Origin: Methanoculleus chikugoensis
Lineage (GTDB): Archaea > Halobacteriota > Methanomicrobia > Methanomicrobiales > Methanoculleaceae
NCBI RefSeq assembly: GCF_019669965.1
Contig: NZ_AP019781.1
Span: forward strand, 1,551,092-1,615,091
DNA: 64,000 nucleotides
Reading direction: 5' to 3'
Every line of letters begins with the position of its first letter. Within the stretch, counting starts at the first letter, position 1. A program made the translations under genes and the position numbers. Below the pieces are notes generated by a model, which saw only the letters and a program-made list of their open reading frames with translations, made no database searches and had not been told where the DNA came from. Positions 4,873-21,615 of this stretch are shown here, one piece after another.

Positions 4873-6789
4873 CTATTCCCTCTCGCCCTCGAACCGGTAT
4901 GCTCCGTTCGGTACAGTGATCTCGAACCGGGCACCCGTCCCGGATCTACCGGTCTCCCGGATCGTCATCCCGGTGATCCCGAGGATCCCCGCGACCAGGA
5001 AGAGCCCGTGGCCGTACCGCCGCTTATAGGTCTCGCGGAATATTGCCTCCTTCTCGCCGTCCGGAATGCCGGTGCCGTCATCCTCGCAGACGATCAGCAG
5101 GTCCTGCCCGGCCCTCGTGCACGAGAACCGGACCTCCGTCACGCTTCCGCCGTGGCGGACGGCGTTGTCGATGAGATTGTAAAAGACCTTCTTCACCATC
5201 GGGTCCGCGTAGATCTCAAGGCCCGAGAGGTCGGCGCGGACGTCGATCCCTGTCGGGAGGGCGAGATAGGAGACGCTCTCCGCGACAAGGTCCTGCGGCC
5301 TCTGCCAGACCGGCGTCTTCACCCCCATGTCGTGGTAGTCCCAGCTGAACTCGATTTGCTTCTGGATCTCGTCAACGGCGGCATGAGCACGCTCCAGACA
5401 GGCCCGAACCCCGGGATTCTCGCTATCCTCCCCGGCAAACCCGATGTAGGCACGTGCGACGGTGATCTGGTTGAGGATGTCGTGGCGGGTGATCCCGGCG
5501 AGAAGGTTCAATTTCGCGTTCGCTTGAACAAGCGCCTCCTCGGCGTGCTGCTGCTCGGTGATATCCTCCCCGGAGCTCAGGATCCCGCAGACGGCACCGT
5601 TCTCGTCACGGAGCACGGTGTTGTGCCACGCGATGATCCGTTCGCCGCCGTCTGTAGCGACGACCGGCATCTTCACGCGCTCATTCTCCCCGATCTCACC
5701 CCCTCTCAGCTCCGCGAAGAGCGCACGGAAACGCTCCCGCTCCGCCGGCGGGATGAACCGCTCGGCCCAGGCCTCGCCCACAGCCGCATCCGCCGGGCAG
5801 CCGAGAACCTCGGACGCCCGGCGGTTGATGAGGGCGACCCGCCCGTCTCCATCGAGGACGACGAAGAGGGCTCCGGCGATGTCCAGATACTGTGCGAGCC
5901 GGTTCTTCTCCTGCCTGAGCCGCTCTTCACTCGATTTCAGGCCGGTAAAGACCAGCGCATAAGGCTGCCGGATCCCCGTCTCGACGAACGCGACGTAGAT
6001 GAGCCCGAACGAGAGCACCATCAGGAGGTGGCCGATCATGTTTGAGGGGCCATAGACGCTGATATAAAGCGTAAAGGCAAGTTCCGAGGCGATCATCACG
6101 AGGACGGCCGCGAGCAGGTGGGCCGCCACCCGGGGCGAGAAGGCGGCCCGCACCCGGTAGACGGCGACCGCCCCGAGGGCGAGCAGCACCGCTATGATGT
6201 ACTCGCTCCAGATCTTGAACGGCGTCAGCCCCGAACCCACGATGTAGCAGTCGGGAAAGACCGGGACGACGAAGATCGAGAGGAGCAGGAGCACGGTAAC
6301 CCCGGCAAACGCGGCAAACACCTCCCGGGGACCGGGGTTTCTCCGGAGCAGGAGAGGCGCGGCAAGCAGCGTCCCGGCGAGGAGGTAGCGCGAGGCGATC
6401 CAGAGTTGCGTCGGGAGGTTTGCGTCGTAGCCGACGAATATCCCCATGCCGTCATACGCGAGGGTGTGGACCAGTGCGATGCCGGCCACGAAGAGCAGCC
6501 CGGTGCCGGCGACCAGCAGGTAGCCGTTCTCCCGCATCGTCCGGGCGTTCCATGCCACGATGAAGACGCCTAACGCAATCGCGATGGCGACGAATTCGGC
6601 GATCGTGTGGAAGAGGAGATACCTGTACAGGCCTGTTGCCGCGAGGGCGGCCAGAAGCACCGTAAGGACGATGAACGATCGCCAGATGCCGGATTCCGCG
6701 GCCCCCTGTTCTATGCGGCCCCACTGGCTCTCTGCTCCGCTCCGGGTTGTACGCGCCGAAGAATCTGTCTGCATAGAGTTGGTCTGCAT
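4873..6789 (-). CDS. Membrane sensor histidine kinase, MASE3-PAS-HisKA-HATPase
   Basis: Two-component sensor of about 638 aa. The N-terminal half carries seven or so membrane helices and resembles the MASE3 integral-membrane sensor domain (LLFHTIAEFVAIAIALGVF, HTLAYDGMGIF). A PAS domain follows (VLDGDGRVALINRRASEVLG), then the phospho-acceptor motif ITRHDILNQ, and a HATPase domain with the N box DNAVRHGG, the G1 box EDDGTGIP and the G2 region YGHGLFLVAGIL. The ITRHDILNQ form is typical of methanogen kinases. The start at ATG 6789 has AAGGAG only 2 nt upstream; GTG 6840 is the alternative. A TATA-like GGATATATTAG sits at about 6903-6913. No response regulator is encoded nearby. Confidence 0.88.
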   Translation of the reverse strand: MQTNSMQTDSSARTTRSGAESQWGRIEQGAAESGIWRSFIVLTVLLAALAATGLYRYLLFHTIAEFVAIAIALGVFIVAWNARTMRENGYLLVAGTGLLFVAGIALVHTLAYDGMGIFVGYDANLPTQLWIASRYLLAGTLLAAPLLLRRNPGPREVFAAFAGVTVLLLLSIFVVPVFPDCYIVGSGLTPFKIWSEYIIAVLLALGAVAVYRVRAAFSPRVAAHLLAAVLVMIASELAFTLYISVYGPSNMIGHLLMVLSFGLIYVAFVETGIRQPYALVFTGLKSSEERLRQEKNRLAQYLDIAGALFVVLDGDGRVALINRRASEVLGCPADAAVGEAWAERFIPPAERERFRALFAELRGGEIGENERVKMPVVATDGGERIIAWHNTVLRDENGAVCGILSSGEDITEQQHAEEALVQANAKLNLLAGITRHDILNQITVARAYIGFAGEDSENPGVRACLERAHAAVDEIQKQIEFSWDYHDMGVKTPVWQRPQDLVAESVSYLALPTGIDVRADLSGLEIYADPMVKKVFYNLIDNAVRHGGSVTEVRFSCTRAGQDLLIVCEDDGTGIPDGEKEAIFRETYKRRYGHGLFLVAGILGITGMTIRETGRSGTGARFEITVPNGAYRFEGERE

Positions 6790-7042
6790 GGCTCCTTTTC
6801 GGTGCGGGCGGGGAACAGCGGGCCGGCTCCCGGACGTCACGCCCGAACCCTGCCCCGGTGGTGCGGCGCCAGGGCCCGGACCATCCGCCCATGTTTCATC
6901 TCACTAATATATCCAATGGACCATTAAAGTATTGGATGGGGAAAAAACCCATATATGGCGCAATTCAGGAAAAACAAGGATTATATTATGACAATCAGAT
7001 GGGGCGCTCTCATGCGGATCGAGATTTATCCACACGAGATCG

Positions 7043-9895
7043 CTACACCAGTTCGTTCCTCCGCAGGAACTCCCTGATCTCGCGGGACTCGACCCAGCCC
7101 TCGTCGAGCTGCCTGACGATCGCGTTGATCCGCTCAACCTGCTCCCGGATCTTTGCCGACATCGCCTCATCATCGGCCAGATCGGCCATGCCGAGGATCA
7201 CCTGCAGGGGCAGCCGGATATGGTCCGCGAGAACTGCAAACTGCTCGATATTCTGCTCGATCTGGTAGAATGCCTGCAGCCGCATATCCTCGTAGCGCGC
7301 CCGGTCCGAGACGTCCCTGCCGACGATCTGTACGCCCACGACAAGGCCGTCTTCCACGATCGGAGACTCGTTCAGTTCGAGGAACGCCACCGACCCGTCT
7401 TTGCGGCGGAACTCGACCTCGACCCCCTCGACCGGTTTGCCGCGGGCGATCTTCTCCCGCCCATCCTCCCAGACGGGGAGGGACGAGGGGACGACATAGT
7501 CGTGACACCTGCGGCCGATGAGTTCATCGGGAGTATAGCCGAGGATGCGGGTCACCGCCGGGGAGATATAGGTGATCCCCCGGTCGCGGTGACAGGTGTA
7601 GATCATATCGAAACTTCGCTGCGCGATCTCGCGGAACCGCTCCTCGCTCTCCGCAAGAGCGTTCTGCATCTCCCGCCAGTCGGTGATGTCCTCCAGCATC
7701 GCGATGACCAGGCCTCCCTCCCCGGAGTCGTGGAGCAGCGACGTGGTCAGCCGCCCCCAGACTAACCTGCCGTCCTTCGTCAGGTAGCGCTTCTCCCGGC
7801 GGAGACCCTTCATCAAAGCGGTCTCTCGGTGGAGAGAACCGGCCTCCTCCCGGTCGGGCGGGTAGATCAGGTCGTATGACCGCATACCATACAGTTCGTC
7901 CTCGTCGTAACCGAACATGCGCACGAACGCCGGGTTCGCCTCCATGATCCGTCCGCCCGGGTCGATGAGCGCGATCCCGGTTCCCGCCTGCTCGAAGATC
8001 CCCCGGAACCGCTCTTCGCTCTCCCGCAGCGCAAGTTCCGCTTTCTTCTGTTCGGTGATCTCCTGCCCCGTGACGGCCAGCATCCCGGCCCGCGGCCGGT
8101 AGATCTGCAGGTCGTACCACCGCCCGGTTCTCGGCTCCTGCAGCCGCCGCTGAACCGGAAGACCGGTCTCTGTGACCTCCCCATAGAGAGCACGGGCACC
8201 CTCGCGGATCGCCGGGAAGATATCGAAGAGCCGCTGTCCGACCAGTTCTTCCCGGCTGCGGCCGAATACCTCGGCCGCTTTCTCGTTCAGCTCGCTGATA
8301 CGGTAATCGACAGGGTTCCCTTCGTCGTCCCGGATAACCTCGTAGAGGGTGTAACTCTCGAGCATCCGTTCAAAGAGAAGACGGTACTTCTCTTCGCTCC
8401 TCCCGAGAGCCTCGTTCGCCCGCATCCGCTCGATGACCCGGCCGAGTCGCCCGGCAACGGCATCGATCAGGCGGCGTTCATCGACGAGAAACGGCGTACC
8501 GTCGTCTTCGGGCCGCGGGTGGCGGTAGCAGACCTCCACCTTCCCGACGATCCTCCCCTTGACGACGATCGGGCTCTCCTGCCGCCAGGGGCTCTCGATA
8601 AAACCGGCCGACCGGTATTCCCGGCCGTCGACCACGATCCGGGCGGCGGCATCTTCCGGATGGAGCCAGCCGGCCGGGAGGATGACGGCAACATCCCGGA
8701 GAACCTCTTCGACCGAGTTCCCGGGCCGCTCGATGACGCCGCTCACGGCGTAAAGCGTCGCAAGTTCCCTCACCCGGTTGTCCAGGGCGATCCGCTGCTC
8801 CCGCAGCATCTCTTCAGCCCTGCGCCGTTCCGTGACGTCTCCTGCAATGACGACGAGCCGGTCATACTGCGGCCGGTATACCTTCAGTTCGTAGAAGGAG
8901 CCGGTATCCGGACTCGAGATCTCGCGGTGCACCGTCCTCCCGGTTGCGGCAACCTGGTAGAAGAGGTCGAGCGCAACGGTGCCGATCGCCGGAATAGCCT
9001 TCGGGAGGTCTTCTCCGACGACCTCCTCCTGCGGACGCCCGAGGTTTTCGGCGGCTTTGCGGTTGATCCGGACGACCCGGAAGCCGGCAGGGTCCCCTGA
9101 ACCGTCGCGGAGTATCTCAAGAAGGAGGCCGGCGTCCGGCATCTGGTCGAAGAGGAGGCGGTACTGGTGCCCGGACGAAGCAGCCCCGGCGGGTGCCGGC
9201 GCGACGGCCGCCCCGAGCATCGCGGCGACGGCACGGACGAGGGCATGCTCCTGCGGCAGGAACGGATCGTCCCTCCCCTCCGGGACCCTCCGGCACTCGA
9301 CCACGAGGTATGCGGCTGAACGTCCTCCGGCATCTATCCCGGCAACAATCCTTCCGGGCCCCGGAACGGCGATTCCGGGCACTATCCGCACCGACACCTG
9401 TTCAGGGTGGCGGAACCCGCGGGGCAGAAGGGCGGCCGTCTCCGGGAAGACCTCGCCGGCATCGGCGCCGCCTTCGATCGCACGGGCGACCGCGGAGAGG
9501 GTGCAGAGCTCCCTCGTCTGCCAGCACGGTTCGTCCCGGACGGTGACGTCGAGGTCGACCCCCGCCCAGAGGACGATCCTGCCCGTGGCGTCCCTGACCG
9601 GGATGCCCCTGCTCGCGATGGTGCGGTATCCGCCGTCGGCATCCCGGATCCGGTAGTTGCACCTCCATGGAAGACCGGCGTCGTTGCAACGTTCCCACCG
9701 GGCGAGCACCGTCCCGGCGTCCTCCGGGTGGAGGTTGCCCGCCCCCGCGGGATCAGAGCGCTCTTCGAGCGTCGTTTCCTTGAGGGGAGGCGCCACGCCG
9801 TCGGGCCCGCTGATCCAGATCCTGCAGGAGATTGCCTCGTCGGCAGGCAGGCCATGGTTGTCCGGAGCGGTCGCGGTGAAGTCTGGTGACGGCAT
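7043..9895 (-). CDS. Multi-PAS sensor protein with H-box but no ATPase domain
   Basis: A 950-aa cytosolic sensory protein. In order: PAS (about 15-125), a degenerate copy of an unassigned 115-residue module (128-245), PAS (250-365), a good copy of that module (370-490; RELATLYAVSGVIERPG, PAGWLHPED, RLGRVIERM), then three PAS domains (to about 870), the last with SFDMIYTCHRDRGITYISPA. The last 75 residues hold ADHIRLPLQVILGMADL, which matches the H box of HisKA dimerisation domains. The chain then ends at FLRRNELV with no HATPase domain. It has the same design as the protein at 19867-21615. Without ATPase it cannot autophosphorylate; it may partner with a complete kinase such as the one at 4873-6789 (inference). 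Confidence 0.85.
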   Translation of the reverse strand: MPSPDFTATAPDNHGLPADEAISCRIWISGPDGVAPPLKETTLEERSDPAGAGNLHPEDAGTVLARWERCNDAGLPWRCNYRIRDADGGYRTIASRGIPVRDATGRIVLWAGVDLDVTVRDEPCWQTRELCTLSAVARAIEGGADAGEVFPETAALLPRGFRHPEQVSVRIVPGIAVPGPGRIVAGIDAGGRSAAYLVVECRRVPEGRDDPFLPQEHALVRAVAAMLGAAVAPAPAGAASSGHQYRLLFDQMPDAGLLLEILRDGSGDPAGFRVVRINRKAAENLGRPQEEVVGEDLPKAIPAIGTVALDLFYQVAATGRTVHREISSPDTGSFYELKVYRPQYDRLVVIAGDVTERRRAEEMLREQRIALDNRVRELATLYAVSGVIERPGNSVEEVLRDVAVILPAGWLHPEDAAARIVVDGREYRSAGFIESPWRQESPIVVKGRIVGKVEVCYRHPRPEDDGTPFLVDERRLIDAVAGRLGRVIERMRANEALGRSEEKYRLLFERMLESYTLYEVIRDDEGNPVDYRISELNEKAAEVFGRSREELVGQRLFDIFPAIREGARALYGEVTETGLPVQRRLQEPRTGRWYDLQIYRPRAGMLAVTGQEITEQKKAELALRESEERFRGIFEQAGTGIALIDPGGRIMEANPAFVRMFGYDEDELYGMRSYDLIYPPDREEAGSLHRETALMKGLRREKRYLTKDGRLVWGRLTTSLLHDSGEGGLVIAMLEDITDWREMQNALAESEERFREIAQRSFDMIYTCHRDRGITYISPAVTRILGYTPDELIGRRCHDYVVPSSLPVWEDGREKIARGKPVEGVEVEFRRKDGSVAFLELNESPIVEDGLVVGVQIVGRDVSDRARYEDMRLQAFYQIEQNIEQFAVLADHIRLPLQVILGMADLADDEAMSAKIREQVERINAIVRQLDEGWVESREIREFLRRNELV

Positions 9896-10120
9896 GGTTT
9901 AACACTGAAGGGAAGTCAGGCAGGGTGACGGAGATTGACGGCAGGCCGTCACCCGGGCATGCTGTGCTGGGGGCGGTCGTTCCGATCAGTTGGGTCGAAC
10001 TCGTCATAATGGTTCTGCTCGGTGAAAGGGCGACCCCCTATTCGAGCAATTGCGCCGGCGACAGATCCGGATATGCGCCCGGACACCCTTTAAGTGAGAA
10101 GCGGCTAAGGTTGTACGATC

Positions 10121-10168
10121 ATGACGGAGACCTGCGCCCGAACGACTCCGGCCGGAGGCGGGCCGTGA
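10121..10168 (+). CDS. 15-codon leader ORF overlapping the Zn/Cd ATPase start
   Basis: ATG at 10121 opens MTETCARTTPAGGGP and its TGA (10166-10168) overlaps the GTG start of the metal ATPase (GTGA). A TATA-like CTTTAAG lies at about 10088-10094, roughly 30 nt upstream, so a transcript could begin close to this ATG. Its own ribosome site is weak (AAGG 10 nt away). The overlap suggests translational coupling or a leader peptide; the single Cys is suggestive but unproven. The CopB-type ATPase at 15848 has a similar small ORF. Confidence 0.4.
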   Translation: MTETCARTTPAGGGP

Positions 10169-12099
10169 CGGAGCATGAGGAAGGTCCGTCCTGTCCCCGC
10201 TGCCGGGTTGGGGCCTCTCACGGGCAGGTCGTCGGCCGCCGAGAGGTTGCTGTCTTCGGGGTCTCGGGCATCCTCCTCCTCGCGGGGGTGATCGTCGGGT
10301 ACCTCACCCCATATCCCTTCGCCGGGACAGCCCTGCTCCTCGCCGCCGCGGTCATATCCGGCTACGATATCCTGAGAACCGGGTTCTTCGCTCTCATCCG
10401 GCTCCGGTTCAGCATCGCCGTGCTCATATCCATCGCGGCGGCAGGAGCGTTCCTGACCGGAAATCCCGCCGAGGGGGCGACCGTGCTGTATCTCTACGCC
10501 GTCGCCGAGTTCCTGGAGGAGTACGCGGCCGGCAGGGCCGAACGCTCGATAGCCTCGCTCCTTGACCTCACGCCGCAGACGGCCCGGGTCAGGCGGGACG
10601 ACGCCGAGACGACTGTTCCGGTCGATGACGTCGGCGTCGGGGAGATTGTAATCGCGAGACCGGGCGACACCGTTCCGCTCGACGGCATCGTCGTTGCCGG
10701 CACCTCGTCGGTCGACCAGGCGGCGATCACCGGGGAGAGCGTCCCGGTGGCAAAGGAAGTCGGGGACGGCGTCTACGCAGGGACACGGAACGTCGACGGG
10801 TACCTCGAAGTCCGGGTGACGAAACCGGAACGAGAGAGCACGATAGCCCGGGTCGCCGCCCTGGTCGCGGAGGCCCAGTCCCACACTTCTCCCACCGAAG
10901 CGTTCATCGAGCGCTTCTCCCGCTACTACACGCCGGCGGTCATCCTCCTCGCCGCCCTCCTCGTCGTCGTCCCGCCGCTGGCCTTCGGCGTCCCGTTCCT
11001 CGAAGCGTTCTACCGGGCGCTGATCCTGCTCGTCATCGCCTGCCCCTGCGCGCTCGCGATCTCCACCCCGGTCTCGATGGTCTCGGGGATCACGACCGCG
11101 GCGCATAACGGCGTGCTGATCAAGGGCAGAGACTCGCTCGAAGCCGTGGGGCTTGCGCGGGTGGTCGTCTTCGACAAGACCGGGACGCTCACGACCGGGA
11201 GGCTTGAGGTGGACGACGTGGTAGGGTTCGGGGTCCCTGAGGCGGAGGTTCTCGCCGTCGCCGCATCGCTCGAGTCACGTTCCGGCCACCCGATCGCGGA
11301 GGCGATCCGGCGGCGGGCGGAAGAGGAGGGAGCCGTCCTGCGGGACGTCGAGGAGTTCGTATCACTGACGGGGAGAGGCGTCCGGGGGAGGATCGGCGGT
11401 GCGGCCTACACCCTCGGGAACGTTGCGCTCTTTGCCGACGGAGATGACCGGGCATGGCGGGCGGCGTACGACCGGCTGGAGAGCGAAGGGAAGACGGTCG
11501 TCCTCGCCGGTACCGCCTCAGGGGTGATCGGGCTCGTCGCTCTCTCGGACGTGGTGAAGAGGGATGCAGAAAAGACGGTTGCCGCTCTTCAGGCGCGGGG
11601 CATCAGGACGGTGATGCTCACCGGGGACAACGAACGTGTCGGTGAAGCAGTGGCCCGCCATATCGGGATCGACGAGTGCCATGCCGGGCTCCTCCCGGAG
11701 GATAAGGTGGCGATGGTCGAGCGGCTGATGGACCGCTACGGGCTCGTGGTGATGGTCGGCGACGGCGTGAACGACGCGCCGGCGCTTGCACGGGCGAACG
11801 TCGGGGTCGCGATGGGGGCGATAGGCTCAGACGTCGCGATCGAGGCGGCAGACATCGTCGTGATGGAGGACGACATCTCGAGGGTCGCCTACCTCGTCGC
11901 CCTCTCTGAGAAGACGGTCTCGGTCGTCCGGCAGAACGTCATAGCGGCGCTCGTGGTGAAACTCGGCATCGCCGGGCTCGCGGTCTTCGGGCTGGTCACC
12001 CTCTGGATGGCGGTGGCGTTCGGGGACATGGGGCTCTCGCTTGCGGTCATCGCAAACGCCCTCAGGATAGGCCGGCCGGATACCGGCAATCCTCCATGA
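10165..12099 (+). CDS. P1B-2 type heavy-metal (Zn/Cd/Pb) exporting ATPase
   Basis: Membrane efflux pump, 644 aa. It has the metal-site CPC motif (IACPCALAIS, about residue 293), phosphorylation motif DKTGTLT (Asp near 337), TGES in the actuator domain, SGHPIAEAI, and GDGVNDAP in the hinge. Helix 7 reads RQNVIAALVVK and helix 8 has GDMG, which fit the N(x)7K...DxG signature of the P1B-2 Zn/Cd/Pb class. The GTG start at 10165 has GGAGG 6 nt upstream; the frame extends further 5' but overlaps the divergent sensor gene. The short N-terminus carries CPRC instead of a full heavy-metal-associated domain. It is divergent from the PAS protein at 7043. Confidence 0.93.
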   Translation: MTEHEEGPSCPRCRVGASHGQVVGRREVAVFGVSGILLLAGVIVGYLTPYPFAGTALLLAAAVISGYDILRTGFFALIRLRFSIAVLISIAAAGAFLTGNPAEGATVLYLYAVAEFLEEYAAGRAERSIASLLDLTPQTARVRRDDAETTVPVDDVGVGEIVIARPGDTVPLDGIVVAGTSSVDQAAITGESVPVAKEVGDGVYAGTRNVDGYLEVRVTKPERESTIARVAALVAEAQSHTSPTEAFIERFSRYYTPAVILLAALLVVVPPLAFGVPFLEAFYRALILLVIACPCALAISTPVSMVSGITTAAHNGVLIKGRDSLEAVGLARVVVFDKTGTLTTGRLEVDDVVGFGVPEAEVLAVAASLESRSGHPIAEAIRRRAEEEGAVLRDVEEFVSLTGRGVRGRIGGAAYTLGNVALFADGDDRAWRAAYDRLESEGKTVVLAGTASGVIGLVALSDVVKRDAEKTVAALQARGIRTVMLTGDNERVGEAVARHIGIDECHAGLLPEDKVAMVERLMDRYGLVVMVGDGVNDAPALARANVGVAMGAIGSDVAIEAADIVVMEDDISRVAYLVALSEKTVSVVRQNVIAALVVKLGIAGLAVFGLVTLWMAVAFGDMGLSLAVIANALRIGRPDTGNPP

Positions 12100-13064: not shown

Positions 13065-15479
13065 TCAGGCGGAGGCACCTTCCCCGCGTCCGGCTTTCCG
13101 GAGGGTAAACCGGAACGCCGCACCCTCCCCGGGGCGGCCCGGGACACGGTCTTCGACCCAGATCCTGCCGCCGTAGCGCGCGGCAAGCATCCGGCAGATC
13201 GAGAGGCCGAGCCCCTGGCTCCCCCGCCTGCCGCCCTCCCGCTCGAACCGGAAGAAGATTGCCTCCTTCAGATCGTCCGGAACCCCGGGGCCGGTGTCGG
13301 CAACGGTGACGACGACGGTCTCTTCGTCCAGATCATCGACCCCCACCGTGACCTCGACGCCCGACCCGCCGTGCTTTGCGGCGTTGCCGATAAGGTTCGT
13401 GAAGATCTCGGGGAGGAGGTCGTCGGCGAAGACCTCCACGGGCAGCCCGGAGTACCTGATGCAGAGGTCGGGGAAGTGGGCGATCTCTCCCCGGATCACG
13501 TCGTAGAGGTTTTGCCGCGCAAGCCCGTCCCGGCCCTCCTGGATCTTTCTGAGGGTGGCGACGTTTGCGGTGATCTCGATGCTCTTCCTGATCCCGTCCT
13601 TCAGTTTCCGGGCGTGCCGGGCCGGCTCTCCCTCGAGCTCGTCGATGAGGAGGTCGGCGTAGATGTTTGCGACGTTGTCCGCGTTCCGGATATCGTGAGT
13701 GAGGATATCGAGGTAGAGGTTCGCCTCCCGGTTTGCCACTTCAAGCCTCCGGTAGAGCATTCCCCGCACGATTCCGGCCCCGATCTCGCGCCCGACGGCT
13801 TCGAGGAGCGCACGCTCGTCGCGAGAGAAGAATCCATGCCCCCTGGTTCCGATGAGGAGCGCCCCGACGACGTCCGACTCGACGACGAGCGGGATGCAGG
13901 CGAGTGCGGCAAACCCGAACTCCCGGAGAAGACGGGATCCCGGGGTGTTCGGGCCCCGGTTCTGTTCAAGGTAGCACGGAAGGCCGGTGGCGATGGAATC
14001 GGCAAACGATCTTCCAAAAACGGTCTCTGTAAGTTCCAGGCATGCATCCGGCATATTTCGCCGGCACTGGAGAGCAGCCTCTCCCCGCCCGGAATCGAGG
14101 CGATAGATTGCGCCGCCGTCGTAGCCGAGGAGATCGAGTGTCTGGCTGAGCGCCGTCTCCAGCAGTTCTCCCGGCAGGTGGGTCGAAGCGGATGTGCCGA
14201 TGATCCGGTTAAGCAGAAGGAGATGCCGGTTCCTCGCCTGCAGTTGCTCCTCCGCCTGTTTCCGGTGGCTGATGTCCCGCATGACGACCTGAACCGCAGG
14301 CCGGCCCTCAAAGATCGTCCGTGCCCCCCTCCCTTCGATGGGAACCGTCGTTCCGTCGAGTCTGACGACCAATAACTCAGCAAGCGGCGTCTCCACGCCC
14401 TGCAGGTCCCGCACGGCGAAGGCCTCGATGAGATCCCGGGTATCCGGGCGGACGATATCGAGGATAGCCGTCCCGATCACCTCTTCCGGGCGTGAAGCCC
14501 CGAGCAGTTTCAGGCCGGCGGGGTTGATGAATATGATCCTCCCGTCGCGATGGATCAGGGTCGCCTCGGCGGAGAGCTCGACGAGCGACCGGTATTTCTC
14601 CTCGCTCTCGCGGAGTTTTGCCTCCATCTGCTTCAAGGGGGTGATGTCCTGGACACCGGCAAGGAATCCCCGGCAGGTGCCGCCGGTGTCGATGATGGGA
14701 GTGGTCGCTATCAGCGTATGGATACGGCCACCGCCTTTTCGAACCAGTTCAAACTCGAAGACCTCGCGCATGTTCCGGCCAAGATTCTGCAGGTGTTCTT
14801 TTACGTCTCCGGCACTCCCCTCGTCGATGAACGCATAGACCGGCGCTCCAATGATCCCGGCGATCGAATAACCGATGATATCGGCCATCTTCCGGTTGGC
14901 AAAGACCACGATGCCCTCTCTGTCGATCAGCGCGATGCCCTCGTTGAGGTTTTCGACGAGGAACCGGTACCGGTCTTCGCTCTCCCGCAGTATCGCCTCG
15001 ATCCGCCTCCTCTTTGCGGTATCCATACCCCTTCCAGGGCCGTCGACCCGAAAGGCACGGGTTTCGGAGACCGGGACGGCCCCGGGGCCGGAGGTGTCGG
15101 GAGAGAAACGGACGAGCCGGCTGCCGCGAAGCCGGCCATCATGAACGGCGCGGCACGAGCAGCGGAACCGCCCTTCGCCGCCGTCGGGCAACCGCATCAC
15201 GCACGGAAAGTCGGCAACCGGAGTGCGGCCGGAGAGAAATGCGGTGATCTCGGATCTGCCCGACTTCCCGCAGATGCGGGGTATCAGGGCCTGGTGAGCG
15301 AAGCGATCCGCGTCGGTTCCGGCGGGCGCGTCACGGGTGATGCCGAGCAGGTGCCGCAGATGCTTGTTGATGCAGGCCACCCGGTTGTCGGGGCCGACTA
15401 TCAGCAGCCCTTCGTCGAACGCATCCAGGATGCCGGAGAGTTCGAGGATATCGCCATGTGCGGGTGTGCAGTCATGCAT
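13065..15479 (-). CDS. Cytosolic histidine kinase, PAS-PAS-PAS-GAF-HisKA-HATPase
   Basis: 804-aa sensor kinase. A divergent PAS (AFDEGLLIVGPDNRVACINKH) is followed by two PAS domains (FLVENLNEGIALIDREG; SLVELSAEATLIHRDG), a GAF domain at about 420-575 (ETALSQTLDLLGYDGGAIYRL), the phospho-acceptor LDILTHDIRNADNVANIYADLL, and a complete HATPase domain (IGNAAKHGG, ADTGPGVPDD, GSQGLGLSICRMLAARYGG). There are no membrane helices. AAGGTGAT lies about 9 nt before ATG 15479, and ACATTTTATC near 15530 is a possible TATA element. No response regulator is adjacent, which is common in methanogens. Confidence 0.9.
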   Translation of the reverse strand: MHDCTPAHGDILELSGILDAFDEGLLIVGPDNRVACINKHLRHLLGITRDAPAGTDADRFAHQALIPRICGKSGRSEITAFLSGRTPVADFPCVMRLPDGGEGRFRCSCRAVHDGRLRGSRLVRFSPDTSGPGAVPVSETRAFRVDGPGRGMDTAKRRRIEAILRESEDRYRFLVENLNEGIALIDREGIVVFANRKMADIIGYSIAGIIGAPVYAFIDEGSAGDVKEHLQNLGRNMREVFEFELVRKGGGRIHTLIATTPIIDTGGTCRGFLAGVQDITPLKQMEAKLRESEEKYRSLVELSAEATLIHRDGRIIFINPAGLKLLGASRPEEVIGTAILDIVRPDTRDLIEAFAVRDLQGVETPLAELLVVRLDGTTVPIEGRGARTIFEGRPAVQVVMRDISHRKQAEEQLQARNRHLLLLNRIIGTSASTHLPGELLETALSQTLDLLGYDGGAIYRLDSGRGEAALQCRRNMPDACLELTETVFGRSFADSIATGLPCYLEQNRGPNTPGSRLLREFGFAALACIPLVVESDVVGALLIGTRGHGFFSRDERALLEAVGREIGAGIVRGMLYRRLEVANREANLYLDILTHDIRNADNVANIYADLLIDELEGEPARHARKLKDGIRKSIEITANVATLRKIQEGRDGLARQNLYDVIRGEIAHFPDLCIRYSGLPVEVFADDLLPEIFTNLIGNAAKHGGSGVEVTVGVDDLDEETVVVTVADTGPGVPDDLKEAIFFRFEREGGRRGSQGLGLSICRMLAARYGGRIWVEDRVPGRPGEGAAFRFTLRKAGRGEGASA

Positions 15480-15801: not shown

Positions 15802-15846
15802 ATGCATGACTGGGCCGCAGAAGAGGAGCGGACGGGGAGGACGTGA
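15802..15846 (+). CDS. 14-codon leader ORF abutting the CopB-type ATPase
   Basis: [14 protein letters not shown], preceded by a good ribosome site (GGAG, 5 nt spacing). Its TGA at 15844-15846 is 1 nt from the GTG start of the ATPase, and GGAGG for that GTG lies inside the small ORF. A TATA-like element at about 15740 places it at the 5' end of the transcript. The arrangement parallels the 10121-10168 ORF before the other metal ATPase, though the peptides are unrelated. An alternative reading is that ATG 15806 is the ATPase start and this ORF is chance. Confidence 0.4.
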
Positions 15847-15847
15847 A

Positions 15848-17884
15848 GTGGGCCACGACCACGGTGAGGGCGGACGGCAGTACGAGACGCATCTCAAAGA
15901 GGCCGCCCAGGAGAAGCCGCCGGAGACCCACCGGCCCGGCCATGGCACGCACCGCCAAGCCCTCGATGACTTCCGGCGACGCTTCATCGTCTCGACGATA
16001 CTGACGATTCCAATCCTTCTCCTCTCGAAGCCGGTCCAGGAACTTCTCGGGATCGCCATCCGGTTCCCGGGCTCGGACTACCTGCTCCTCGCTCTTGCGA
16101 CCGCAGTCTACCTCTACGGCGGGTGGCCGTTTCTTACCGGCATCGTAAGCGAACTGCGGGCACGGATGCCCGGGATGATGACGCTCATCGCCGTCGCGAT
16201 CACCGTCGCCTACGTTTACAGTTCGGCGGTCGTTCTCGGCATCGTCGGCGAGGAAGGATTCTTCTGGGAACTTGCCACCCTGATCGACATCATGCTCCTC
16301 GGGCACTGGGTGGAGATGCGCTCGGTTCTCGGGGCATCGCGGGCGCTCGAGGAACTCGTCCGGGTCATGCCCTCGGAGGCGCACCGTCTCCGGGACGGCG
16401 AGACGGACGACGTGCCCGTCGACCGGCTCGAACCGGGCGACCGGGTCTTCGTCCGGCCCGGGGAGAAGGTGCCGGTGGACGGCGTGGTGGTCGAGGGGGC
16501 GACGAGCGTCGACGAGGCGATGCTCACCGGAGAGTCGAGACCGGTGGAGAAGCGGCCCGGGGATACGGTCATCGGTGGGGCGATCAACGGCGAGGGATCG
16601 ATCGTCGTCGAGGTCAAAAAGACAGGTGCGGAGACCTATCTCGCACAGGTGATCGACCTCGTGCGGAGAGCGCAGGAGAGCCGGTCCCGGACCCAGGACC
16701 TCGCGGACCGGGCGGCGTTCCTGCTGGTGGTGATCGCCCTCTCGGCCGGTGCGGCGACGTTCGCGGCATGGCTCACCCTCGGGGAGGGGGGCGGGTTTGC
16801 GGTGGAGCGGGCCGCGACCGTGATGGTCATCGCCTGTCCCCATGCGCTCGGTCTTGCCGTCCCGCTCGTGATCGCGGTCTCGACGGCGCTTGCCGCAAAG
16901 TCGGGGTTCCTGATCCGGGACCGGAGCGCGTTCGAGCGAGCAAAAGATCTGACAGCGGTCGTCTTCGACAAGACCGGGACCCTCACGACGGGGGTATTCG
17001 GTGTCACGGACGTCCTCGCCTTCGGCGGCGCGGCGGAGGAGGACGTGATCGGGACGACGGCATCGGTTGAGGCGCACTCCGAGCACCCGATTGCCCGGGG
17101 CATCGTCCGAAGCGCGGAGGAACGGGAATTAATCCTGCTCACGGTAGAGGGGTTCCGGGCGATCCCGGGGGTCGGCGTCGAGGGGACGGTCGACGGCCGA
17201 ACCGTCCGGGTGGTCGGGCCGGGTTACCTCGCGGAGCGGGGCATCGATGCCGGGGACGGACGGATTCGGCCGCTCCAGCGGCAGGGAAAGACCGTCGTCT
17301 TCCTGCTCGAGGATGACCGGCTCATGGGAGCGCTCGCGCTTGCCGACATCATCAGGCCTGAGTCGGGGGAGGCGATCCGCCGGCTCAAAGAGATGGGCGT
17401 TCGGTGCATGATGCTGACCGGGGACAATCGCGATGTCGCCGAGTGGGTGGCGGGGGAACTTGGCCTCGACGAGTTCTTCGCAGGGGTCCTCCCCCATGAG
17501 AAAGCGGAGAAGATCCGGGAGGTGCAGCGCCGTTACCGGGTGGCGATGGTGGGCGACGGGATCAACGACGCACCCGCGCTTGTCGAGGCCGATGTGGGCA
17601 TCGCCATCGGGGCCGGAACCGATGTGGCCGTGGAGAGCGCCGATATCGTGCTCGTGAGGAGCGATCCGCGGGACGCGGCGGCGGTCATCGGCCTTGCAAG
17701 GAAGACCTACCGGAAGATGTTCGAGAACCTCCTCTGGGCGACGGGCTACAACGCCGTCGCCATCCCGCTCGCCGCCGGGGTTCTGATCGGCGCCGGGATC
17801 CTTCTCACCCCGGCGGCAGGAGCGGTGCTGATGAGCGCAAGCACGGTGATCGTCGCGATCAATGCCCGGCTGCTCCGGGTGTAG
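15848..17884 (+). CDS. P1B-3 (CopB-type) copper/silver transporting ATPase
   Basis: Membrane metal efflux ATPase, about 678 aa. The intramembrane motif is CPH ([12 protein letters not shown], near residue 330), diagnostic of the P1B-3/CopB class. DKTGTLTTG (about 374), [18 protein letters not shown] and [17 protein letters not shown] complete the catalytic set. The N-terminus is His-rich ([15 protein letters not shown]), also typical of CopB. GTG 15848 has GGAGG 7 nt upstream and is preferred; ATG 15806 in the same frame would add 14 residues. It is the second metal pump within 6 kb, suggesting a metal-resistance cluster. Confidence 0.92.
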
Positions 17885-18880: not shown

Positions 18881-18923
18881 CGGATCAATTCTCTTATCGG
18901 TTTTGACGTCGACCGGTACGTAC

Positions 18924-19280
18924 ATGGGGCGGTACGCCAGCGGCGACGTCGTCTTAGCCGCCGTGTGCATCGGGGGAGGGGGCGCGCGGAAGGTGCGCCC
19001 GGTGGTGGTCGTTTCTGCAGGAGAGACCGGGAGCCTGCTGATCTGCCCGGTATCGAGCAGTCCGTCCACCGACGGAATCTCGATCCCCCTCTCGCTCGAC
19101 GACTTCGCCCGGGGCGGGCTCGACCTCTTCACCGAGAGTTACGCTCTCGCCGCCCACGCCGCCACCATCCGGACGGCGGACGTCGTCGGAAAGAAAGGCA
19201 CGCTCCTGCCGGAGACGCTCGCCGCCGTCCGGGAGGCCATGCCGGGGGTGCAGGAGAAGAGAGGGCGGGGGCGGCGGTGA
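18924..19280 (+). CDS. MazF/PemK-like protein, no visible antitoxin
   Basis: 118 aa resembling the PemK/MazF fold: an N-terminal GDVVLAAVC strand, the conserved RPVVVVSAG segment, LLICPVSSSPSTDGISIPL, and a C-terminal IRTADVVGKKGTLLPETLAAVREAM. MazF toxins cut RNA and usually pair with a small upstream antitoxin. Here the upstream neighbour is the PKD protein and no antitoxin-sized ORF lies on either side. It could be a solitary toxin, be neutralised from elsewhere, or have a non-toxin role. A TTG at 18903 in frame could extend it by seven residues. Confidence 0.72.
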   Translation: MGRYASGDVVLAAVCIGGGGARKVRPVVVVSAGETGSLLICPVSSSPSTDGISIPLSLDDFARGGLDLFTESYALAAHAATIRTADVVGKKGTLLPETLAAVREAMPGVQEKRGRGRR

Positions 19281-19866: not shown

Positions 19867-21615
19867 TTAAAGTTCGTATCGCTTCAAAAACTCCCGGATC
19901 TTCCGCGACTCCATCCATTCCCGGTCGAGCTCGCCGATCTGCACATTGATCCGCCGGACCTGCTCCCGGAGTTTCTCCGCGACCGCTTCGTCGTCGAGGA
20001 GATCCGCGACCCCCATGATCACCTGGAGCGGGTGGCGGACGTGGTCGGCAAGGATGGCGAACTGAGCGATATTCCGCTCGGTCATATCGAACGCCTGCTC
20101 CCGGAGCCGCTCGTGCAGGATCCGCTCGGAGATATCCCTGCCGATCACCTGGAATCCCACGATCGCCTTCTTCTCGATGATCGGCGACTCGTTCAGTTCC
20201 AGTATGGCGGTCTCCCCGTTCTTTCGCCGAACCTCAATCTGGAGCCCTTCGACCTGCTCGCCCCGGAGAACTCTCCGCCGCCCCTCTTTCCAGACCAGAA
20301 GGCTCGTCGGGAGGATGTAATCCTCCCAATCAGTTCCCACCATCTCTTCGGGGGAATACCCGAGTATCCGCTCCATCGCCGGCGAGATGTAGTTCAGCCC
20401 GTCGTCCCGGTATGACGTGACGATGAGGTCGAAACTTCGCTGGGCAATCCCCCGGAACTTCTCCTCGCTCTCCTCGAGCGCCGCTTCCACCTGCAGCCGT
20501 TCGATGATCCGGCCGAGCCGCTTCGTGATGGAGTCGAGCAGCATCTGCTCTTCCGGCAGGAACGGCCCTTTGCCGCCCTCCGGGACCTCCGCGAGGTACC
20601 GCACCTCGACCTCACCGACCAGTTCGCCGTGGACGGCGATCAGGCTCTTCTGTTTCCAGGGGGAATCCACCGGATCGCCCCGATAGTAATCCCGGCCGTC
20701 GACGGTGATCCGCACCCCGGTACTGTCCGGGTATTGCCATCCCATGGGGAGGGTATCGGCAACCGCCTGCAGGAGTTTCTCGAGCGTCATCCCGGGCGTC
20801 TCGACGAGGTGCGCGATGGTGTAGAGGCACCGGAGTTCGTCCATCCGTTTCTTCAGTTCGTGCGTCTTCTCCCGGAGCGCCTCCTCCACCCGGTTCTGCT
20901 CGGTCACGTCGAAGGCCGTCCCGGTAACGCCGACAATCGTCCCGTCAGCATCCCGAAACGGCTTGAGCGTCAGATCGCGGACACGTCGCTTGCCTGCGAT
21001 GGTGAACGTCACCGCAGCCCGCACGGTCTTTCCCGTCTCAAGAACCCGCCGCTTGAGCGCGGTAAGGTGCTCGGCATCCTCGGGAAAAGCATCCTCTTCG
21101 CGCATGCCGATGATGGACGCGTCCGTGGACCCCAGCTGCTGGTTGTACGACCAGATGTAGCGGAGTTCTTCATCCTGCACGAAGACGACCACCGGGGACC
21201 CTTCGAGCGCGGCCCTGAAGTGATGCGCATTCAGATCCGCAGTGGCGTCCCGGATCTTGATGAGCCGCTGCCCGGTCGCGGCGAAAGCCTGTTTGCTTGA
21301 TATCGAGATCCAGCGCCGGGTGCCGTCGTGGGTCCGGGTACGGCAGAGAAGAGGAGGCAGGTCCGCGCCGTTTTCAAGGACACGATGGAGCAGCTGCACG
21401 GAGTCCTCGTCTTCGATGATCGGCAGGAAGTACGTGTCGAGGAGAGAACCGAACTCCATCCCGATGGCGTTCGTCTGCCGGATGCCGAGGGTTCGTGCGA
21501 GGGCGGGGTTGTACCACCTGACCTTCCGGTCGTCGCCTATCACAAGAAGTCCATCTTCGAGAGCATTGAGCACCGCACGATGGAAGGGTGCCCGATCCTG
21601 ATGCGAGTCCGTCAT
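19867..21615 (-). CDS. PAS sensor protein with H-box but no ATPase domain (second copy)
   Basis: 582-aa cytosolic protein, smaller relative of the one at 7043-9895. Order: PAS (10-130), PAS (130-250), the unassigned 115-residue module (255-375; RCLYTIAHLVETPG, PMGWQYPD, SPWKQKSLIAVHGELVGEVEV, RLGRIIERL), PAS (380-500; SFDLIVTSYRDDGLNYISPA), then a terminal H-box segment ADHVRHPLQVIMGVADLLDDE. The chain stops at FLKRYEL with no HATPase. The last 80 residues match its paralog closely (KLREQVRRIN, ESRKIREFLKR). The gene is isolated between repeats and a nitroreductase. A signal-integrating or phosphotransfer partner role is inference. Confidence 0.85.
   Translation of the reverse strand: MTDSHQDRAPFHRAVLNALEDGLLVIGDDRKVRWYNPALARTLGIRQTNAIGMEFGSLLDTYFLPIIEDEDSVQLLHRVLENGADLPPLLCRTRTHDGTRRWISISSKQAFAATGQRLIKIRDATADLNAHHFRAALEGSPVVVFVQDEELRYIWSYNQQLGSTDASIIGMREEDAFPEDAEHLTALKRRVLETGKTVRAAVTFTIAGKRRVRDLTLKPFRDADGTIVGVTGTAFDVTEQNRVEEALREKTHELKKRMDELRCLYTIAHLVETPGMTLEKLLQAVADTLPMGWQYPDSTGVRITVDGRDYYRGDPVDSPWKQKSLIAVHGELVGEVEVRYLAEVPEGGKGPFLPEEQMLLDSITKRLGRIIERLQVEAALEESEEKFRGIAQRSFDLIVTSYRDDGLNYISPAMERILGYSPEEMVGTDWEDYILPTSLLVWKEGRRRVLRGEQVEGLQIEVRRKNGETAILELNESPIIEKKAIVGFQVIGRDISERILHERLREQAFDMTERNIAQFAILADHVRHPLQVIMGVADLLDDEAVAEKLREQVRRINVQIGELDREWMESRKIREFLKRYEL

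Follow-up and report, generated by a model that had tools for sequence, protein, structure and literature searches.

Two PAS proteins and their gene neighbourhood

The window, that is, the whole stretch of 64,000 nucleotides of Methanoculleus chikugoensis DNA that was analysed, harbours two minus-strand genes, at 7043-9895 and 19867-21615, whose frames are open throughout and which encode proteins of 950 and 582 residues, respectively (hereafter the 7043 and the 19867 protein). The 7043 protein consists of several PAS domains, a weak GAF-like match and a C-terminal stretch of 80 residues (7043-7285 including the stop codon, minus strand; HisKA match at residues 884-936), and the 19867 protein consists of PAS domains and a corresponding stretch (19867-20106, minus strand) with a HisKA-like match; the two stretches, referred to here as tails, are candidate pseudo-DHp domains. 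Over the full proteins the HisKA scores were 23.4 bits (7043) and 24.8 bits (19867), just below the Pfam cut-off of 26.9, and the tail of the 19867 protein reached 28.5 bits when scanned alone. A Pfam-type domain scan found no HATPase_c in either protein. Both thus end, as the original prediction held, in about 80 HisKA-like residues without an ATPase domain.

HATPase_c was present in two further products of the window, which bears out their proposed identity as kinases. Kinase 4873 (4873-6840, minus strand; MASE3-PAS-HATPase) has His in the acceptor position of its TRHDILNQ motif; its gene lies ~200 bp downstream of the 7043 gene on the same strand. Kinase 13065 (13065-15479, minus strand; PAS-GAF-HATPase; motif THDIRNAD) adjoins no tail gene and belongs to the conserved block described below. 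Two plus-strand genes for P-type ATPases, at 9886-12099 and 15806-17884, are interleaved with the two kinase and two tail genes, and their products are presumably of the heavy-metal type by their motifs. A small ORF of 125 residues (18903-19280, plus strand) separates the P-type ATPase block from the 19867 gene; it is conserved in six Methanoculleus genomes and may be MazF/PemK-like.

The tails end where the ATPase domain of a kinase would be expected to start, a coincidence that truncated or decaying kinase genes would also produce. The block formed by kinase 4873, the 7043 tail gene, the two P-type ATPases, a cupin, kinase 13065 and the 19867 tail gene was sought in six other Methanoculleus genomes. 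In all six, the 7043 and 19867 proteins were syntenic, essentially full length and 75-98% identical, and the adjacency of the 7043 gene and kinase 4873 was kept; the block as a whole is largely conserved in the genus, with L358 and L355 each lacking a strong match to one of the ATPases. All seven Methanoculleus copies of each tail protein stop at the same residue. Pairwise dN/dS (NG86) was 0.078 for the 7043 tail and 0.146 for the 19867 tail versus 0.31 and 0.30 for the respective sensor parts, the tail being the most constrained part of both proteins and under purifying selection. Synteny, identical stops and low tail dN/dS together rule out truncation of the two genes, in line with what had been argued from their intact frames. 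With tail matches (E≤0.001) in 173 of the 232 genomes of the class, which here comprises the same order only, the probability that the tails are truncated or decaying kinases is close to nil.

Extent of the tail family and its links with two-component genes

Within the order, tail matches at E≤1e-4 were found in 113 of 150 genomes, with up to 20 per genome; the window's own genome encodes eight tail proteins. Beyond the order but within the phylum, many strong matches were found in one family (f9) and single weaker ones in two others (f8 and f24). One f9 genome, G330, is presumably Archaeoglobus fulgidus DSM 4304, and f9 is taken as Archaeoglobi on that basis. The scan of the genome collection, which relied on exact short patterns, gave matches in Methanomicrobiales only and is hence uninformative on bacteria. 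Among 136 distinct order-level tails, 134 end no more than 38 residues from the stop codon. With 113 of the 150 genomes and near-terminal positions in almost every case, the tail family is far beyond chance; the relatives retrieved by their tails are many PAS proteins that end in it without HATPase and co-occur with kinases, as the original prediction expected, rather than proteins that normally continue into an ATPase domain. A HisKA match (PF00512; E≤1, best E 4.1e-10) was obtained for 46 of 47 diverse tails, several of them under the gathering score, and among the NCBIfam matches there was no family-specific model.

The two exceptions with a non-terminal tail are L057 and L149. In L057 (1090-2232, plus strand), a PAS-tail protein is followed by an RyR-type domain (PF02026, E 2.5e-18). 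L149 (G149:C1:140500-147779, minus strand) is a frame of 1919 residues with an internal tail, several PAS domains and, at its end, a complete kinase core with TRHDVFNQ and an ATPase domain; it is possibly a natural tail-kinase fusion or the product of a lost stop codon.

The inputs of 85 full-length members were mostly PAS, together with REC (12), GAF_2 (11), HAMP (10) and CHASE4 (7) as well as SBP, Cache and 7TM domains; the tail is one constant module behind varied sensor inputs.

The numbers of tails and kinases were compared in 108 near-complete genomes of the order, with HATPase and REC counts taken as first-look candidates and phylogeny disregarded. None of the 15 genomes with eight or fewer HATPase candidates had a tail, and 87 of the remaining 93 did. 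Within two families, tail number followed HATPase number (rho 0.80 and 0.90), also as a partial correlation on genome size (rho 0.76 and 0.84) and after correction for both genome size and REC number (0.69 and 0.74), and REC number added nothing once HATPase number had been corrected for (0.03 and 0.08); the relation of tails and kinases could reflect a joint expansion of PAS-type sensors. Some kinase-rich genomes lack a detected tail; G093 and G121, for example, have ~70 HATPase and ~60 REC candidates and no detected tail, in a family that also has genomes with 13-20 tails, which suggests loss or replacement of the tail module.

Plain adjacency of tail and kinase genes showed a modest excess: a kinase ATPase domain (home-made profile) was found within 3.5 kb of 18 of 90 tail genes, about twice a rough expectation and hence a weak signal. 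At four loci from three families of the order (L079:440-3939, plus strand; L096; L146; L148), a kinase, a single-domain response regulator and a REC-PAS-tail protein are encoded in a row on one strand, and in the three runs read closely the genes overlap or nearly abut. The suggested pairing with kinases or regulation of two-component partners is possible, and the co-occurrence and these runs lend it indirect support.

Such pairing might take the form of tail-kinase heterodimers that share a DHp bundle, on the pattern of RetS and GacS, and in which the tail protein would silence or retune the kinase. The correlation with kinase number that persists after both corrections would fit this reading, as would the kinase gene next to the 7043 gene in six genomes and the joining of a tail and a complete kinase in the L149 frame. 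The L149 fusion is, however, a single case, and the kinases that adjoin tail genes differ in type and in their DHp sequences, which are divergent (HDILNQ, HELRTP and HisKA_2-like), and we regard kinase-directed heterodimers as rather unlikely.

Aspartate at the phospho-His position

The register of the tails was set by HMMER alignment of the tail profile to kinases in the PDB and by hhalign against 14 genuine kinase DHp sequences. Searching PDB sequences with the tail profile gave no match below E 0.07, yet the printed kinase alignments fixed the register: the LnDeIRnPLqvI segment of the profile pairs with ISHELRTPLTVI and LGHDLRNPLQSI of solved kinases, with Asp under the phospho-His. The hhalign alignment was ungapped through the motif and agreed with this register (probability 96.3, E 1.6e-9). 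In the kinases that the tail profile matched in other families of the phylum, the motif is HDIRNPLSV and ~150 residues follow.

Asp was found at the acceptor position in all 265 distinct tails (221 order-level and 44 Archaeoglobi-like; codons GAC in 170 and GAT in 95), a set that includes close relatives and does not represent 265 independent observations; one extra tail, outside the set because the search pattern missed it, also has Asp. In the 7043 protein the motif is DHIRL (7211-7225, minus strand), with the Asp codon at 7223-7225 followed by His at +1, Arg at +3 and Leu at +4, the phosphatase position; in the 19867 protein it is DHVRH (20032-20046, minus strand), with the Asp codon at 20044-20046 and His at +4. 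The ‘conserved H-box' originally reported for the two proteins has therefore to be revised, as the His noted there is the +1 residue, which aligns to the E/D column of kinases and is variable: over the 265 tails, +1 is H in 175, E in 35, R in 18, Q in 15, K in 9 and others (including N, S, A and G) in the rest, with His in 163 of the 221 order-level and 12 of the 44 Archaeoglobi-like tails. Position +3 is Arg in 258 of the 265.

All 42 HisKA matches of the window's own genome and G330 were read, and they comprised 19 Asp-type versus 23 His-type matches. The Asp-type matches end no more than 85 residues from the match start and have no ATPase domain, while the His-type matches are followed by at least 188 further residues and, in the window's own genome, each is adjoined by a HATPase_c match; across the 42, a long C-terminus went with every His-type match and with none of the Asp type. 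The tails fit the HisKA profile yet are without the phospho-accepting His. As a family they share with archaeal HisKA of the HDIRNPL type the helix-hairpin register, the R-N-P-L motif and Asn at +4, but differ from it in having no His, no acidic +1 and no ATPase domain and in their own C-terminal segment, LDxGWxESxKIRxFLxKH.

The phosphate acceptor of HisKA kinases is the His; an acidic +1 residue is required for kinase activity only, and T/N at +4 for phosphatase activity only (PMC3510030). Phospho-transfer through the +1 His, a role that the original prediction had listed for the two proteins and that the 2018 survey of the class (PMC5847659) also reads from its His, would be in keeping with the frequency of this residue in Methanoculleus and its presence in both window proteins. 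However, many homologs have E, Q, R, K, N, S, A or G there (the G034 ortholog of the 19867 protein has Arg), and the residue lies off the acceptor column. Because that column is Asp in every tail, transfer of phosphate through a tail His was rejected as unsupported, and we consider it very improbable.

The tails might instead be sensor-phosphatases, in that the ancestral motif, D-x-I-R-N, keeps the Asn with which HisKA kinases dephosphorylate response regulators, drops the His and the acidic +1 residue, and places Asp one helical turn before the amide, in DxxxN/Q spacing. At +4, Asn was found in all 44 Archaeoglobi-like tails and in 144 of the 221 order-level ones (Gln in 41, Leu in 22, His in 13 and Tyr in 1), being kept except in a Methanoculleus-centred group. 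A phosphatase role has been proposed for the class (Galperin et al. 2018; PMC5847659). For this activity HisKA requires T/N alone, and CheZ uses DxxxQ (PMC3510030). Tails would share with the DxxxQ phosphatases CheZ and HisKA_3 an acid and an amide four residues apart on a helix, but this likeness appears to be one of spacing, without sequence homology, and the tail amide is mostly Asn, with Leu in some. Further points weigh against the reading: the 22 order-level tails with Leu at +4 include the 7043 protein, an Asn-to-Gln change at the same position of the kinase CrdS abolished phosphatase activity (PMC3510030), the conserved Asn could be structural, and tail numbers follow kinases rather than REC domains. 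Judged by these residues, DxxxN tails may be phosphatases, but Leu at +4 makes this unlikely for the 7043 protein and His at +4 makes it uncertain for the 19867 protein; as a general account of the tails, phosphatase activity is rather unlikely. A broader version, in which the whole lineage would possess His-less sensor-phosphatases whose Asp and kept Asn form a CheZ-like DxxxN/Q site for response regulators, requiring no ATPase and with the sensors balancing a matching number of kinases, is likewise rather improbable.

Fold and proposed role of the tail

The AlphaFold2 model of the 19867 tail (84 residues) is a two-helix hairpin (helices 2-41 and 45-81; mean pLDDT 88, pTM 0.66), which is a common fold. 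The first rows of a Foldseek search with it were DHp domains, those of EnvZ and CpxA among them; the DHp complex of RetS and GacS (7n0e) and the DHp of ERS1 were also present, and no E was below 0.7; the presence of 7n0e, weak as its E-value is, is a structural point for the heterodimers discussed above. In VIA-align, DHp were mixed with unrelated helical hairpins. Since kinase DHp stand among many unrelated hairpins, the fold alone is no proof of a DHp; the predicted fold of the tail agrees with one but falls short of proof, and the sequence evidence is stronger.

The reading that we favour, though with little more than even confidence, is that the tail is a non-phosphorylatable pseudo-DHp under PAS control, which would form dimers and act as a docking module for response regulators and/or kinases in the manner of DivL. 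It is favoured because neither of the kinase residues, the His and the acidic +1, is conserved in the tails, because Asp at the acceptor position and Arg at +3 are kept, and because DivL provides a precedent. Counting against it are the merely modest excess in gene adjacency, the joint sensor expansion that could underlie the number correlations, the kinase-rich genomes without a detected tail and the commonness of the hairpin fold. A kinase DHp would have lost its ATP-binding domain directly after the DHp-to-ATPase hinge, the phospho-His becoming fixed as Asp, and the resulting tail would have served as a constant output module for PAS, GAF, REC and membrane sensors. Two hairpins would dimerise into a four-helix DHp bundle whose conformation is set by the sensor domains, and the bundle would dock on response regulators and/or partner kinases without accepting phosphate, so that the tail protein may tune phosphate flow as the Caulobacter pseudo-kinase DivL does. 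What is observed is the missing ATPase domain, the invariant Asp, the conserved response-regulator-docking Arg at +3, the purifying selection and the co-occurrence with two-component genes; what we infer is that the tail dimerises, what it docks on and which way it acts.

In DivL, Tyr replaces the phospho-His, binding of DivK~P is gated by PAS domains, R553 (the +3 position) is needed for docking, and essential functions are fulfilled without kinase activity (PMC4211667). PAS domains, a DHp with a replaced phospho-His and a response-regulator-docking Arg at +3 are thus common to DivL and the tails, but in DivL the replacement is Tyr and a CA/ATPase domain is retained, whereas the tails carry Asp, lack a CA domain and occur as multi-copy families.

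On these data, hundreds of HK-like archaeal proteins, often annotated as HKs, appear unable to make or carry phospho-His. If the Asp-for-His reading is correct, up to ~20 genes per methanogen genome would encode phosphate-free sensors plugged into two-component networks, kinase censuses would have to be counted differently, and an experimentally simple family would be available for DHp function without catalysis.

Only Asp was found at the acceptor position in the tails read from G330, G034 and G043, the latter two of which we take to be M. marisnigri JR1 and M. petrolearia, respectively. The only published description of the class that was found names it ‘nonenzymatic HK-like proteins' or ‘HisKA, no HATPase', credits it with ‘a conserved His' that accepts phosphate, lists seven genes each in A. 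fulgidus, M. marisnigri JR1 and M. petrolearia, and suggests that it serves as a phosphoacceptor, in phosphotransfer or as a phosphatase (Galperin et al. 2018; PMC5847659). PAS/GAF sensors, a C-terminal HisKA-like domain, the lack of HATPase and the occurrence in Archaeoglobi and Methanomicrobia are the same in that class (PMC5847659) and in the tail proteins, but where the survey has a conserved His, which the tails read from the three genomes do not show, the tails have an invariant Asp and a variable adjacent His. A literature text search, which reached few subscription papers, found no other published account of the Asp substitution. The class itself is thus already described; what is new is that the Asp is invariant and that the tails divide cleanly from true kinases. 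G034 encodes exactly seven tails, all of them with Asp.
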